In this document: one piece after another, positions 19,535 through 29,154 of the stretch
Position numbering within the stretch: the first letter of the stretch is position 1
How the letters are laid out: each line of letters starts with the position of its first letter
NCBI GenBank assembly: GCA_012521995.1
Contig: JAAYLH010000026.1
Coordinates: 1-36,412 of the forward strand
Length of the DNA stretch: 36,412 nt
Direction: 5' to 3'
From: Bacteroidales bacterium
GTDB lineage: Bacteria; Bacteroidota; Bacteroidia; Bacteroidales; UBA7960
The notes under the pieces: generated by a model
What the model was told of the DNA's origin: nothing
The model's input: the letters and a program-made list of their open reading frames with translations, nothing else
The model's database searches: none
Program-made: the position numbers and the translations under genes

Positions 19535-19547
19535 GCCCTTTTTAGAA

Positions 19548-19557
19548 GGTTCGAACC
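19548..19557. repeat. Ten-base palindrome after the EEP gene
   Basis: GGTTCGAACC is a perfect palindrome 14 bases past the stop codon at 19534. It resembles a tRNA T-loop word, but no tRNA surrounds it. With no loop it cannot act as a terminator. It may be a protein site or chance. Confidence 0.25.
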
Positions 19558-19595
19558 ATTCGATATTTTTTTGCTTTTCTTTCCTCTCTTTCATC

Positions 19596-19680
19596 TTCAG
19601 GTATAATTTTTGTTACGAAATCATAAAATTTCATATGTAATTTTCTTTTTATTTTACTAGTATGTAACAAAAATCCTGAA
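19596..19680. repeat. Interrupted inverted repeat before the lipoprotein gene
   Basis: ATTTTTGTTAC (19606-19616) is inverted as GTAACAAAAAT (19664-19674). Beyond a TATA insert (19602-19605) on the left arm, TTCAGG (19596-19601) matches CCTGAA (19675-19680). The arms give 17 matched bases around an AT-rich centre of 47 bases, which holds a smaller GAAAT/ATTTC hairpin. The right arm ends three bases before the lipoprotein ATG at 19684. Confidence 0.55.
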
Positions 19681-19683
19681 CCC

Positions 19684-20550
19684 ATGAAAACAAAAAAAAC
19701 GATCAGACAACGGATGTTCCTCCTTGCCCTGGTGGTTTTATCCCTTCCGGGATGTGCCACCCTCGACAAAGCAGCCCTCAATGAATTACAGCGGGTGCCT
19801 TTCGAACCCCTCGCCCTGCAGCCCTCCTTCGATGTCTACCAGATCAGGCTCGACATTATCAGGGCCAAGGATTCGGTAACACAATCCGATTCAACCATCA
19901 CCGAAGAAGCTCAAGCCTATCAAACGCTCGGGTTTTATCTGGGCAACGGGCTCTTTTATGACCTGAACAACAATCTCTCCCTGCTGATTCCCGATCTGTA
20001 CCAACTCAACCCTGCCGAAGGATTTACCATCGAAGAGGCGGATCACAGCACCTACCAGGAGGCGATATACCGTCGTGAGCCTGATGCCTTTATTGTTGAA
20101 TATCCCGGCCTGATTCGTTGGGTAAGGAAAGCCGATTTAACCATAACCGACAGTACCCTGACCTTCAGCAGAGGGCTGCTGAACAAATATTCCCTGTCGT
20201 GGACTGACTCGACCCTGAAGCATAAGGGCCTGGTCTTCTCTACTAAAATCCTGCCCGAACCAGGGGGCTTCTATGTCCCCCGTCTTCTTTTTCGGAGGCA
20301 TTACCATCAGGACGGGCAAACAATAAGCCTGGAAAACAACTATCGCATTGTCAGGGATAATGATGCCATCCTCATCTTCAGGAGAAATCTTTTTGGCAGG
20401 TTTAAGCAGTTCCTGACTATGGAGCGATCGCATTCCGACTTGTATATTTACGACAAGCGCCAGCGTGGCCTCAAAATATCCTTCCGTGGCTCCGAACTGA
20501 TCATTTACGAAAACAGGCGCGAGCTAAAAAGATACCTGCTCCACCAGTGA
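19684..20550 (+). CDS. Lipoprotein of unknown function
   Basis: I do not recognise this family. It has 288 residues with a basic N-terminus, a hydrophobic stretch (FLLALVVLSLPG) and a lipobox LPGC with the lipidated cysteine at 24. The residues after the cysteine (CATLDKAA) do not look like the acidic export signal that sends some Bacteroidota lipoproteins to the cell surface, so a periplasm-facing position is more likely. The body alternates short hydrophobic and polar runs, suggesting beta structure, and has three near-repeats of a DSTL/DSTI word (TQSDSTITE, ITDSTLTF, TDSTLKH). A terminator follows. No neighbour suggests a function. Confidence 0.75.
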   Translation: MKTKKTIRQRMFLLALVVLSLPGCATLDKAALNELQRVPFEPLALQPSFDVYQIRLDIIRAKDSVTQSDSTITEEAQAYQTLGFYLGNGLFYDLNNNLSLLIPDLYQLNPAEGFTIEEADHSTYQEAIYRREPDAFIVEYPGLIRWVRKADLTITDSTLTFSRGLLNKYSLSWTDSTLKHKGLVFSTKILPEPGGFYVPRLLFRRHYHQDGQTISLENNYRIVRDNDAILIFRRNLFGRFKQFLTMERSHSDLYIYDKRQRGLKISFRGSELIIYENRRELKRYLLHQ

Positions 20551-20577
20551 TTCTGCTCAGAAATGATGTTATTTTTG

Positions 20578-20607
20578 AAAGCGCAACCCAAGGGCTGCGC
20601 TTTTTTT
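20578..20607 (+). terminator. Rho-independent terminator of the lipoprotein gene
   Basis: AAAGCGCA (20578-20585) pairs with TGCGCTTT (20596-20603) around a ten-base loop and runs into seven Ts ending at 20607. It lies 27 bases after the lipoprotein stop codon. Confidence 0.88.
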
Positions 20608-20697
20608 GTTTTTCCTGAAAGTTATGTCCGTAAAACAACGCTCCTTTTCGTTTTTTTCGTAATTTGGCAGGTATTAATCGGGGCGCTATATTAAGTT

Positions 20698-20709
20698 TTT
20701 GTTAACAAA
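20698..20709. repeat. Twelve-base palindrome ahead of the Na/Pi gene
   Basis: TTTGTTAACAAA is a perfect palindrome lying 23 bases upstream of the TAnnTTTG box at 20732-20739. That is near the -33 region, a typical place for a regulator site. No known regulator can be assigned. Confidence 0.4.
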
Positions 20710-20731
20710 CCCCTATTGGGTAAGATTTAAG

Positions 20732-20739
20732 TAATTTTG
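20732..20739 (+). promoter_or_regulatory. Candidate -7 promoter box of the Na/Pi gene
   Basis: TAATTTTG matches TAnnTTTG exactly, 28 bases before the ATG at 20768. A clear TTTG at the right distance upstream is missing; the nearest, TTTTTG at 20696-20701, is 30 bases away. The box alone gives moderate support. Confidence 0.45.
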
Positions 20740-20767
20740 ACCCCTTCGAGGATTTAACATCTGACCT

Positions 20768-22468
20768 ATGAATTTTGGCTTTACTCAGATCCTGACCCTT
20801 TTCGGATCCCTCAGCCTGTTCCTCTTTGGGATGAAAACCATGAGCGACGGGATCCAGAAGGTTGCTGGCGATAAAATGCGCTCCATCCTGAGCGCCATGA
20901 CCTCCAATCGTTTTATGGGAGTTTTGACCGGGCTGATTGTTACTACCCTTGTGCAGTCGTCTTCTGCATCAACCGTGATGGTGGTAAGTTTTGTCAATGC
21001 AGGCTTGTTAAATCTTTCCCAGGCCATCGGCGTTATTATGGGCGCCAATATCGGCACTACCACCACTGCCTGGATCATTTCCCTCCTGGGATTCAAGGTC
21101 AGCATTGCGGCCTACTCCCTGCCCCTGATCGCCATTAGCTTTCCCTTGCTGATGATGTCGCGCGAACGCCTGAACTCCCTGGGTGAAACCCTCCTTGGCT
21201 TTGCGCTGCTGTTTATGGGCCTTGAGTTTCTCAAATCCTCGGTACCCGATCTGAACAACAATCCGGAAATCTTTGAAGCCCTGGGCCGCCTCACCGACTA
21301 TGGCTTTTATACAACTCTTATTTTTCTTGGTATTGGTACCCTGCTAACCATCGTCCTTCAGTCCTCCAGCGCCACCATGGCCCTGACCCTGGTGATGTGC
21401 AACAACGGCTGGATAGGCTTTGAACACGGGGCTGCCCTCGTCCTGGGCGAAAACATTGGCACCACAATCACCGCCAACCTCGCTGCCCTGATGGGGAACA
21501 GCCAGGCCAAACGCGCTGCCCTTGCACATACCTTCTTCAATTTGATTGGGGTGATCTGGATGCTGATCATCTTCAAATCCTTTATTGGGCAGATCGACCA
21601 TTTCATGGTGAAATTTGGCCTGGGATCGCCTTTCGCCATCTCAACGATGGTGCCTATCGGGCTCTCCATTTTCCATACCGCCTTTAACATTATCAATACC
21701 TTCCTGCTCATAGGGCTGCTCAAGTATTTCGTAACCGTAGTAGAGTATTTACTGCCTTCGAGGGGCAAAAAATTCGAACGACCTCAGCTGGAGTTCTTCA
21801 GCAGTGGGTTCCTGCAGGCGGCCGAACTCTCCGTCTTCCAGGCAAAAAAGGAAACCATCCGCTTTGCCGAACTGTCCCACCGGATGTTCAACTTCATCCC
21901 TGCCATGATCATCGAAACCGATAAAAAAGAATTTGAGGACCTGAGGGAAAGGGTTAGCAAGTACGAGGAAATCACAGACAGGGTGGAGGTGGAGATCACA
22001 ACCTTCCTTGTCAAGATCTCGAAAAAACAATTGAGCGGCCACGCTGCCGAGGAATTGCGCAGGATGCGTTTGGTTTGTGCTGAGGTAGAAAAGATCGGCG
22101 ACGTGTGCTTTAAGATGTCGACCCTACTGGCCAAGAAAAAGGAAGAGAAGGTATATTTTACCCCGGCCCAGCGCAGTGAGCTGTTCGAAATGTTTAAGCT
22201 CACCAACGATGCCTTCGAGCAAATGCTTGAAAATGCGGAGAAGGGTGAGAGCTTTGCCCGTCAGAACCTCTCGCGCTCCATCCAACTCGAGGCTCGCATC
22301 AATGCCTTCCGCGATGCCGTTGGCGAGGAAGTTATTGAGGACATTGAAAAGGGCGTGGCCCACGTTAAGAGTGCCTTCTACTTCAACAAACTGGTCTCCT
22401 CATGTGAAAAGATCGGCGATACCCTGCTGAACATTTCCGAAGCTGTGGCTGGTGTAAATATCGAATAA
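20768..22468 (+). CDS. Na+/phosphate cotransporter family protein with PhoU-like C-terminal domain
   Basis: It has 566 residues. The membrane part (about 1-330) contains the two inverted-repeat signatures of the NptA/PNaS family: QSSSA at 63-67 with GANIGTT at 92-98, and QSSSA at 198-202 with GENIGTT at 227-233. These build the substrate and sodium sites in the family. Residues about 345-560 are charged and helical, like the PhoU-type tail found in YjbB-like members, and probably regulate transport from the cytoplasm. The likely role is sodium-coupled phosphate movement across the inner membrane; direction and exact substrate are unknown. Confidence 0.9.
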   Translation: MNFGFTQILTLFGSLSLFLFGMKTMSDGIQKVAGDKMRSILSAMTSNRFMGVLTGLIVTTLVQSSSASTVMVVSFVNAGLLNLSQAIGVIMGANIGTTTTAWIISLLGFKVSIAAYSLPLIAISFPLLMMSRERLNSLGETLLGFALLFMGLEFLKSSVPDLNNNPEIFEALGRLTDYGFYTTLIFLGIGTLLTIVLQSSSATMALTLVMCNNGWIGFEHGAALVLGENIGTTITANLAALMGNSQAKRAALAHTFFNLIGVIWMLIIFKSFIGQIDHFMVKFGLGSPFAISTMVPIGLSIFHTAFNIINTFLLIGLLKYFVTVVEYLLPSRGKKFERPQLEFFSSGFLQAAELSVFQAKKETIRFAELSHRMFNFIPAMIIETDKKEFEDLRERVSKYEEITDRVEVEITTFLVKISKKQLSGHAAEELRRMRLVCAEVEKIGDVCFKMSTLLAKKKEEKVYFTPAQRSELFEMFKLTNDAFEQMLENAEKGESFARQNLSRSIQLEARINAFRDAVGEEVIEDIEKGVAHVKSAFYFNKLVSSCEKIGDTLLNISEAVAGVNIE

Positions 22469-22745
22469 GCAGGTTGATCATTGTTTCAGACTTGCCTTCG
22501 GGCAAAACCCCTTTTTGAGATCAGGAGCTCATTGGCTCCCAGTGGGTTGCAATTCCTGTTCATCCATTTATCCTTTCACGATTATCAGCTCTGACCTTTA
22601 TCCCTGCCCGTTTTGGTGCTCACCCGGCAGTTGTTAAACCTTTTCTTTCCTCCCCATTCAATCTGAAATGCAGGACAGAGTCCTTTCCTGAAGCAAGGAA
22701 TGCCCCCCCCCTCGGGGAGGGTATAGTCATTATTCATGCCCTGGC

Positions 22746-22797
22746 TTAAGACGGGATTTCTTCGTGGTTTAGACGTCTTAAACCGGCTAAACCACGA
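22746..22797. repeat. Interlocked inverted repeats (pseudoknot-like order)
   Basis: Arm A TTAAGACG (22746-22753) is complementary to CGTCTTAA (22774-22781). Arm B TCGTGGTTTAG (22762-22772) is complementary to CTAAACCACGA (22787-22797). The order is A, B, A', B', so both can form together only as a pseudoknot. The segment 22766-22784 is also nearly self-palindromic (GGTTTAGACG/CGTCTTAAACC with a bulge), a third competing fold. All arms are exact matches. The function is unknown. Confidence 0.6.
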
Positions 22798-22878
22798 GGA
22801 TGGTACCTGTATGGTATGGGCATGGTCAGCAGGTGTAAACCAGGTTAAGCTGGAATTCCTTAGTGAATTACCGTTCAC

Positions 22879-22912
22879 AAAAAAAGCCACCCCTGGCCGA
22901 GGAGCGGCTTTT
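22879..22912 (-). terminator. Rho-independent terminator of nrfA (minus strand)
   Basis: Read on the minus strand, AAAAGCC (22912-22906) pairs with GGCTTTT (22888-22882). Inside, CTCCT pairs with AGGGG, and a T-run continues to 22879. It starts 21 bases past the nrfA stop codon. Confidence 0.85.
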
Positions 22913-22933
22913 CCGTTAAGGAGCAGGGCAGGA

Positions 22934-24376
22934 TCAGAGTGCGCTGAGCCACTGGGGTAATACCCTGGCTTTCCATTCATCCTTATCCCGGCGCATCTTT
23001 TCGGGGTCGAGTCCGATGAAGCGCTGGGCATTTTCCTTTGTTGAAATATCGGGCAGTTGAATGGGGTATTCGTGGCCATACTTAATGAAAATGGTAGCCA
23101 GGATAATCCGTGCTTCATTCACTTTCTGGATGGAAGTACCCAGTACCCTGAGGGCTTCGGCCGGCGAATGGATGCCCTTACCATTGGCGGCGGCCACCCA
23201 GTCCCAGCGCCATTGTGCGTGGCGGATAAGTTGCAGCACCTCTTTCATATCGGTTTCCGTAGCGCCAGCATCCCAGGCAAATTTGGCTTCGATGTGGACG
23301 GTAGCGAGGTTTTTCTCGGCAATACGCCTCAACTCGGAGATGCGGTCCTGATGATCGTAAACGTTCTTGAGCAGCTCATCTTCGTTTTCGCGGTGACAAA
23401 CCACACAGGAGCCAGAGATGTTGTTCAGGGGGCTCTGGATGTGGTGGTCTGTAAATTTGATTCCTCCTTCGCGTTTATAGGGCATATGGCAGTCGGCGCA
23501 GGCCACGCCGCGCTGTGCGTGGATGCCTGTCATATAGAGCTCATAGTCGGGGTGCTGGGCTTTCAGCATGGGGGTTTTGCTCAGGGCATGGGTAAAGTCT
23601 ACGTGGCCAATGTTGTCGAGGTAAGTTTCCATGTCTTCAGCGGCAAAGCCTTCATCCCAGGGGAATGTGAGGTAATTTCCTTCCTTCCCGAAATAATATT
23701 CTACGTGGCACTGAGCGCAAACCAGAGAGCGCATTTCCTGGCGGGTGGCTTTGCTGATGTCGATGCCCTGGCGTTCGAAGGCTTCAATGAGGGCAGGCCT
23801 GGAGATGCGCAGGTTCATGGTGGCAGGGTCGTGGCAGTCGAGGCAACCGATATGGTTCTGGATATTGGGCCCCATTTCTTCCCAGGTTTGGGCGTAAAAC
23901 CCGGCCACGCCAAGCTCGTTCATCATCCGGGGCACATCGGGGCTCTTGCAGGTCCAGCACGTGGCGGGCTGTGGAATTCCTGTTCGCAGGATGTTCTGCA
24001 CGTCGGTAACGGCGTGGTAGTGGCCGCGGCCTTGGTTGTATTCTCTGGAGAAGGCATAACCAGCCCACATCACCACCAGCTCGGGATAGTTCTCCAGGTA
24101 ATCGATCTTGGCCGATCCCCCATTCTTGCTCGAAAACGTGGTGTCGGCCGTTTTGACGTAGCTCTGGAACTGCCGCGGGAAGTTATCGCCCCAGGCAGCG
24201 TTGTTGGTTTCCCATTCATCGATCGGGTTGATCATCTGGAAATAAAGTTGTGCTTCGCTGCGCCTTTCAAGGATGCTTGCGGCAAACAAACCGATGATAA
24301 ACACGATGACTACTGTGGCAAGAAACAGAACCCAGTTCAGCCAGGGTTTCTTTTTTGATTGCTCTCTGATGCTCAT
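22934..24376 (-). CDS. nrfA: Ammonia-forming cytochrome c nitrite reductase, catalytic subunit
   Basis: NrfA reduces nitrite to ammonium with six electrons on the periplasmic side. It has 480 residues. The active-site haem motif is C140WTCK144, with the lysine ligand that marks NrfA. Four standard motifs follow: C178LDCH, C220AQCH, C293ADCH and C324VVCH, five haems in all. The catalytic tyrosine lies in CHVEYY (Y227) and the catalytic histidine in TGIHAQ (H286). The hydrophobic segment at 14-34 may be an uncleaved anchor or signal sequence. nrfH lies 53 bases upstream on the same strand, so the pair forms the NrfHA complex. Confidence 0.97.
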   Translation of the reverse strand: MSIREQSKKKPWLNWVLFLATVVIVFIIGLFAASILERRSEAQLYFQMINPIDEWETNNAAWGDNFPRQFQSYVKTADTTFSSKNGGSAKIDYLENYPELVVMWAGYAFSREYNQGRGHYHAVTDVQNILRTGIPQPATCWTCKSPDVPRMMNELGVAGFYAQTWEEMGPNIQNHIGCLDCHDPATMNLRISRPALIEAFERQGIDISKATRQEMRSLVCAQCHVEYYFGKEGNYLTFPWDEGFAAEDMETYLDNIGHVDFTHALSKTPMLKAQHPDYELYMTGIHAQRGVACADCHMPYKREGGIKFTDHHIQSPLNNISGSCVVCHRENEDELLKNVYDHQDRISELRRIAEKNLATVHIEAKFAWDAGATETDMKEVLQLIRHAQWRWDWVAAANGKGIHSPAEALRVLGTSIQKVNEARIILATIFIKYGHEYPIQLPDISTKENAQRFIGLDPEKMRRDKDEWKARVLPQWLSAL

Positions 24377-29072: not shown

Positions 29073-29154
29073 GCGGATGTGGCGTAATTGGTAGCCGCGC
29101 CAGACTTAGGATCTGGTGCCGAAAGGCGTGGGGGTTCGAGTCCCTTCATCCGCA
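29073..29154 (+). tRNA. tRNA-Leu (anticodon TAG)
   Basis: The acceptor stem GCGGATG (29073-29079) pairs with CATCCGC (29147-29153), with discriminator A at 29154. The D loop has AATTGGTAG. The anticodon stem CCAGA (29100-29104) pairs with TCTGG, and the loop CTTAGGA holds anticodon TAG (29107-29109), reading CUA leucine codons. A long variable arm with GCC-GAAA-GGC marks a class II tRNA. The T arm is GGGGTTCGAGTCCC. CCA is not encoded. The length is 82 bases. Confidence 0.97.

Follow-up and report, generated by a model that had tools for sequence, protein, structure and literature searches.

The intergenic region between the Na/Pi symporter gene and nrfA

The DNA analysed here (the window) is a stretch of 36,412 nucleotides from a Bacteroidales genome, in which a Na/Pi symporter gene and nrfA point towards each other across a gap of 465 bp, with nrfH located behind nrfA (Table 1). 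In addition to its Pfam match, nrfA scores 594.1 bits with NF008339, slightly below the cut-off of 595. The site under study lies outside any gene, as the first-pass annotation had stated, and a terminator scan of 22400-23000 returned three sites, namely 22885-22909 on both strands and 22952-22968. The two-way terminator at the nrfA end stands where the terminator of the relatives' gap stands, the relatives' gaps having been read by eye. No Rfam family reaches its gathering score at the site under study, the sole match in the window being a tRNA at 29073-29154. A run of nine C at 22703-22711, followed by TCGGGGAGGG, was also observed in the extra DNA of this gap.

Two exact inverted repeats, A (8 bp) and B (11 bp), had been described in this gap in the order A-B-A'-B' within 52 bases, and both the pairings and their order are correct. 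A third near-palindrome, previously placed at 22766-22784, is also present and was found over 22768-22781. The claim that chance is an unlikely origin of such a set held as well, as not one of 3000 dinucleotide-shuffled versions of the gap contained it. Longer, imperfect versions extend A to 11 nt (91%) and B to 17 nt (88%). The plus strand is predicted to fold better than its shuffles, both over 22730-22815 (z = -3.5) and over 22722-22865 (z = -4.4), and the predicted fold is a long hairpin built on B, with imperfect pairing in the centre and with pairing A left unused, also in the fold of the longer segment.

Table 1. Features of the Na/Pi symporter-nrfA region, in window coordinates; copies are those found in the genome.
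Feature	Position	Strand	Basis or remark
Gene for a PhoU-domain Na/Pi symporter, left-hand member of the convergent pair	20768-22468	+	NCBIfam TIGR00704 and NF037997 above cut-off; Pfam PF02690 and PF01895
Extra DNA of about 395 bp, missing from the same gap in two congeners	22469-22875		Gap by aligned ends, relatives' gaps read by eye; ends approximate
Array of 11-bp units, e.g. CTTAAGACGGG, GTTTAGACGTC, then ATGGTACCTGT ATGGTATGGGC ATGGTCAGCAG	22734-22865		Lag-11 autocorrelation; outer limits approximate
Arm A, left (TTAAGACG)	22746-22753		Array unit, paired fortuitously with the core; complete (8/8) in the window copy alone
48-bp hairpin region, two arms of 22 and centre TTAA	22756-22803		Alignment and pair counts; ungapped in 41 copies
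Arm B, left (TCGTGGTTTAG)	22762-22772		Part of the family hairpin; 11/11 paired in 21/41 copies, 3 to 10 in the rest
26-bp core (GTTTAGACGTCTTAAACCGGCTAAAC)	22767-22792		2 mismatches from consensus GTTTANNCGGTTTAAACCGNNTAAAC
Arm A, right (CGTCTTAA)	22774-22781		Inside the core, over the TTAA centre
Arm B, right (CTAAACCACGA)	22787-22797		Part of the family hairpin; 11/11 paired in 21/41 copies
Two-way intrinsic terminator, nrfA end of gap	22882-22912	both	Inverted-repeat list and terminator scan; relatives' gaps read by eye
nrfA (ammonia-forming cytochrome c nitrite reductase), right-hand member of the convergent pair	22934-24376	-	PF02335, E 1.3e-171

Dispersed copies in the genome

A pattern search located 41 copies of the repeat in the genome to which the window belongs, and none with the reversed control pattern. 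Many dispersed copies had been proposed beforehand as support for a mobile repeat, and the count is what that proposal anticipated. When applied to 46 further genomes from this family, among them three of the same genus, the pattern matched no place. A blastn comparison of segment 22700-22830 against 39 genomes, its own included, yielded matches within its own genome and none in the relatives; the second place recovered in this way in the genome lies between two other convergent frames.

A strict two-arm pattern matched the window site alone, and CTTCGTGGTTTA with one mismatch showed no separation from its control (18 places vs. 11). Allowing one mismatch in the bare centre CGGTTTAAACCG produced 40 places, vs. 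16 for the control, and longer patterns were therefore used. An earlier pattern, built from the first copies, matched 33 places, again with none for its reversed control; one of these (L055), absent from the 41-place search, is a sister array and is excluded from the 41. The occurrence of 41 dispersed extragenic palindromes in one genome (control 0) is a trait of REP sequences. A short, non-coding element dispersed over intergenic sites is likewise what is found in MITEs, the exceptions being copies L028 and L048, which fall in small open frames of 91 and 121 codons, respectively (frames called by length).

Architecture of the repeat and covariation of its stem

Alignment of the 41 copies revealed a 48-bp layout in which a TTAA centre is preceded by two 11-bp units and followed by two more in inverted orientation, with outer units, frequently ATGG-ended, recognisable by eye further out. 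In the window, segment 22722-22865 has a lag-11 autocorrelation of 0.40 (p = 0.001; 0.004 across all lags from 5 to 23), and segment 22792-22865 alone is also phased at lag 11 (p = 0.001; 0.010 across all lags); in segment 22469-22722 the 11-bp phase is non-significant (p = 0.67). Over the flanks of 42 copies (L055 included), autocorrelation peaks at lags 11 (z = 15.1), 22 (z = 5.1) and 33 (z = 4.4), the next value being 2.4. Phase statistics up to 70 bp from the centre gave z values of 56 and 16 for period 11, while periods 9, 10, 12 and 13 did not exceed 36 and 12, and between 48 and 70 bp the figures are 16.0 vs. 5.1-12.2 for the same periods. Further out, the lead of period 11 is slight at 70-92 bp (7.1 vs. 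3.9-6.5), practically nil at 92-136 bp, and 3.3 vs. -0.1 to 1.3 at 136-180 bp. Regarding terminal inverted repeats of the MITE type, the inversion observed is about the middle of the putative element.

The compensatory changes that had been proposed as a check were found in the stem that contains B; pairing A is complete in the window copy only. Double-changed cells amount to 94, compared with 40.6±4.5 after shuffling (0/500), and 84.6% of the cells are paired, compared with 72.3±1.0 after shuffling and 24.5-37.8% with the partner slid (36 distinct rows). Related copies may inflate these figures, yet several pair types occur at the same columns. Moreover, the two columns that the search pattern did not constrain are paired in 34/41 and 33/41 copies (20.3 and 18.3 shuffled), the column at the unit junction is paired in 33/41 (16.4 shuffled), and several outer columns also pair above the shuffled level; one inner stem column shows no excess (26/41 vs. 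25.1). Covariation is absent in the 41 copies beyond 24 bp from the centre, where pairing within a copy is no better than pairing across copies. A candidate structure in which the whole insert forms a single fold-back was rejected, as no mutual pairing of the arms was found past 24 bp.

Extra DNA at the same gaps compared with congeners

Measured by aligned ends, the gap between the Na/Pi symporter gene and nrfA is 471 bp here, vs. 76 bp and 77 bp in two congeners (genomes G003 and G002, respectively), a difference of +395 and +394 bp. Elsewhere in the window, 34 gaps can be compared in both congeners, and these differ by -8 to +15 bp. A larger sample, comprising 384 kb of the genome plus the window compared with contigs C14 and C6 of G003, provided 88 syntenic pairs. 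Gaps bearing an array were longer here in 5/5 cases, namely by 261, 395 and 629 bp between adjacent genes and by 391 and 1929 bp with open frames in between. Of 80 adjacent-gene gaps without an array, none was longer by more than 100 bp, 72 were within 30 bp and 3 were shorter by more than 100 bp; among three pairs with open frames in between and no array, two were longer, by 801 and 1060 bp. The array list behind this comparison consists of 19 places set by hand from the 41-place search and from the hairpin and array scans described below, in part at a lax threshold (the +1929 place included); only 5 of the 19 have a comparable syntenic pair.

In addition, 13 array gaps were queried jointly against G002 and G003. 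For 11 of them the syntenic congener gap was among the matches listed, each shorter than here, with a shortfall of roughly 170-420 bp by subtraction by eye; for the remaining two (L041 and L049) no syntenic pair was among the matches listed. One gap (L050) is counted in both this query and the 88-pair sample. The extra DNA, at roughly 170-420 bp, extends beyond what can be recognised as array, and this additional part differs from copy to copy: apart from A/T runs and the 11-bp phase, no outer sequence common to the inserts was found. For this reason the ends of the putative insert are given only approximately. The shorter congener gaps are candidate empty sites, with flanks too diverged for the exact ends to be placed.

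Elsewhere in the window, region 19535-20767 is about 1060 bp longer here than in the two congeners and holds an extra gene (19684-20550) for a lipoprotein-like product of 288 aa, which had no Pfam or NCBIfam match at E 0.001 and no counterpart in the relatives' contigs compared. An imperfect 24-nt inverted repeat (19606-19674) stands immediately before it.

Sister repeats and related arrays

A hairpin scan over 384 kb of the genome found 18 hairpins with at least 18 of 22 pairs, 10 of them with a lag-11 similarity of at least 0.41; in 387 kb of G003 it found 6 hairpins, 1 of them with lag 11. Seven ACGG-type copies were already known from the sampled DNA, and the scan missed two of these. Three unit families were distinguished in the genome, namely an ACGG type, an ACGTA type and a TTCAGGCGGG type. 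The TTCAGGCGGG type occupies three places with 67-109 bp in common at 90-96% identity, inside stop-to-stop frames of 124, 250 and 459 codons, and hence sister repeats need not all be intergenic. The sister repeats noticed include three near-identical long palindromes with TTCGACCGAAGTTCAGGCGGG (L220, at about 6202; L227, at about 7255; L228, at about 8828) and an array with ATGGTACGAG-like units (L217, at about 18290).

With an array threshold of 0.55, 420 kb of the genome, window included, contained 10 arrays at lag 11 vs. 0-3 at other lags, and G003 contained 2 vs. 0-3. This threshold was used for the counts because a laxer one of 0.48 is not specific to lag 11 (lags 11, 12 and 15 gave 18, 20 and 17 arrays, respectively). 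The covariance-model search that had been suggested, run on 295 genomes of the order including this one, did return matches in 36 genomes at E 0.1 or better, mostly weak ones. Fifteen places in other genomes were picked by hand, mostly among the best-scoring of these matches; period 11 was the best period in nine of them (six in G148, two in G027 and one in G298) and not in the other six. Related 11-bp arrays are present in one congener and in three other genomes of the order.

Outside the order, four arrays (L064-L067) come from two records titled Nitrospirae or Nitrospira and two titled only 'bacterium'. They resemble the window repeat in their GTTNANNCGG centre, which is so by construction of the search, and in having a short fixed unit, but differ in period, the best being 9 in three and 18 in one, rather than 11. 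Two of them (L065 and L066) carry A and T runs on their flanks and look like two-way terminators. As for a phage or plasmid origin of the repeat, the gap and a sister array were unmatched in phage and plasmid collections, and the centre pattern had no exact match in viral contigs, collections that may omit records close to the genome of the window; this origin was set aside.

Interpretation and alternative readings

The site is probably a degenerate member of a REP/MITE-like repeat family, which is non-coding, dispersed and able to form hairpins and has an unusual 11-bp build. This reading was adopted because the genome holds many copies, because their stems covary and because they lie in DNA missing from the corresponding gaps of congeners. 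Among the options raised by the first-pass annotation, a repeated mobile extragenic element or its remnant is the one borne out, by the 41 dispersed copies without a counterpart in the 46 family genomes, by the covariation of B and by a gap some 395 bp longer than in two congeners. The element would consist of a near-palindromic centre (an 11-bp unit, TTAA and an inverted unit) accompanied on both sides by outer 11-bp units that fade outward, and it may have spread within its lineage by copying and insertion. What is recognised or repaired would be the strand in its folded, single-stranded form, whether during DNA replication or as RNA. The window copy seems to have decayed since, and it probably has no function specific to the Na/Pi-nrfA locus; a regulator of nrfA or of phosphate uptake is probably not what lies here.

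The pseudoknotted small RNA or switch that had been envisaged at this locus is very improbable. Both pairings are exact in the window and beyond chance, and the strand folds better than its shuffles, but pairing A is complete (8/8) in none of the other 40 copies, where it reaches 0-6 of 8 and mostly 0-3, and the pseudoknot or switch was rejected on the ground that this pairing is not kept among the 41 copies. Partial pairing at 6 or 7 of 8 does occur in some copies, namely 5/41 as read and 12/41 on the opposite strand (range 0-7), a minority that is expected from the similarity of neighbouring 11-bp units. Furthermore, the predicted fold of 22722-22865 does without pairing A, Rfam offers no match, and the congeners' gap is too short to contain such a structure. 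An RNA-level role of a more general kind, in which the hairpins would stabilise transcripts or terminate them in both directions at 3' ends, their stems being kept paired by selection on RNA, is an unlikely reading that nevertheless deserves some weight. It would account for the covarying stems, and among 41 arrays with two flanking frames the raw counts, taken without a genome-wide baseline, are 16 convergent, 19 co-directional and 6 divergent (40 of the 41 copies plus L055, with frames called by length and the small frames over L028 and L048 disregarded). In co-directional copies, G-T mispairs exceed A-C mispairs on the gene strand by 15 to 8; this excess is small, however, and is missing in the other copies (16 to 18). 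The 48-bp hairpins also keep at least 43 bp away from the flanking frames (range 43-739 bp), the terminator scan found no GC-rich stem followed by a T run at the window hairpin, a separate terminator stands at 22882-22912, and congeners lack the repeat at this gap altogether.

The regular spacing invites a further reading, namely that of a platform for a candidate DNA-binding or nucleoid protein, with one unit per helical turn inverted about TTAA, serving as an insulator or chromosome-organising site. Consistent with it are the inverted symmetry, the sharing of one period by more than one unit family and the strictness of the 11-bp phase, which is clearest within 70 bp of the centre. Nevertheless, unit letters vary by subfamily, and the covariation of free letters inside single copies is better explained by strand pairing than by the preference of one protein. 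Moreover, period 11 hardly stands out from the other periods past 70 bp; we regard such a platform as rather improbable. The REP/MITE-like reading is preferred to all of these. A bolder extension of it, which we put forward tentatively and consider doubtful, is that the arrays form an undescribed class of inverted mini-arrays, the unit of which keeps one length within a lineage (11 bp for several genomes of the order, 9 bp for the four outside records), grown or corrected at the hairpin centre by template switching in replication or by some enzyme, so that the youngest and best-paired units would be central and older ones would fade outward. No description of 11-bp inverted arrays was found among the titles and abstract beginnings of open-licence papers.

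Overall, what appeared as an isolated oddity now belongs to a family of repeats, with several types of unit, that is open to counting, tracing and testing. The strictness of the 11-bp unit, the covarying arms and the presence or absence among congeners offer a handle on the origin and spread of palindromic repeats, and do so in a bacterium where no REP transposase was found.

Comparison with known repeat classes

REP sequences of the GTAG and CGTC families, as described in passages of PMC3733652, resemble the present repeat in being dispersed, mostly intergenic, many-copy palindromes situated mainly between convergent or co-directional genes, and some of their families are species-specific. 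In the same passages, CGTC REPs have a stem of 8-9 bp, as opposed to 22-24 bp and modular 11-bp units here, and most convergent REPs of the two diagrammed species lie less than 20 bp from the 3' ends, as opposed to the distances of at least 43 bp from frames found here. The GTAG or CGTC tag that marks the foot of a REP stem was looked for by eye: the letters adjoining the core mostly pair with the opposite arm, and GTAG does precede the core in four copies (L031, L034, L042 and L080) and in ACGTA-type sister units, but it is paired. A difference from REPs is that no REP-type transposase was found beside the present repeat. In the assembly, which is 97.8% complete in 140 contigs, a search restricted to the Y1 class found a single transposase (PF01797; L083:139-585, contig C20), of the IS200/IS605 type, and by eye the repeat is absent beside it over a neighbourhood that reaches the contig end after 138 bp and holds other hairpins. 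A REP system driven by a RAYT was rejected as an explanation, as no RAYT gene was found in the assembly and the lone Y1 gene is IS200-type without the repeat adjoining.

The STRR sequences of filamentous cyanobacteria (passages of PMC2670836) are likewise short intergenic tandem units, capable of forming hairpins and without known function. Their unit is usually 7 bp, compared with 11 bp here, and the passages of PMC2670836 mention no ordered inversion in which the arms covary.

Finally, the BrickBuilt MITE of Porphyromonas gingivalis (passages of PMC4596501) shares with the present repeat an intergenic, dispersed occurrence, a limited host range and short tandem units. According to those passages, BrickBuilt consists of 23-nt direct repeats with a leader and a tail, whereas 11-nt units inverted about a centre are found here; nothing like its leader or tail was found in our copies, the flanks of which have only A/T runs in common, and the period is 11 and not 23. 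The distance to coding sequence is 49-591 nt for BrickBuilt and 43-739 bp for the present repeat.
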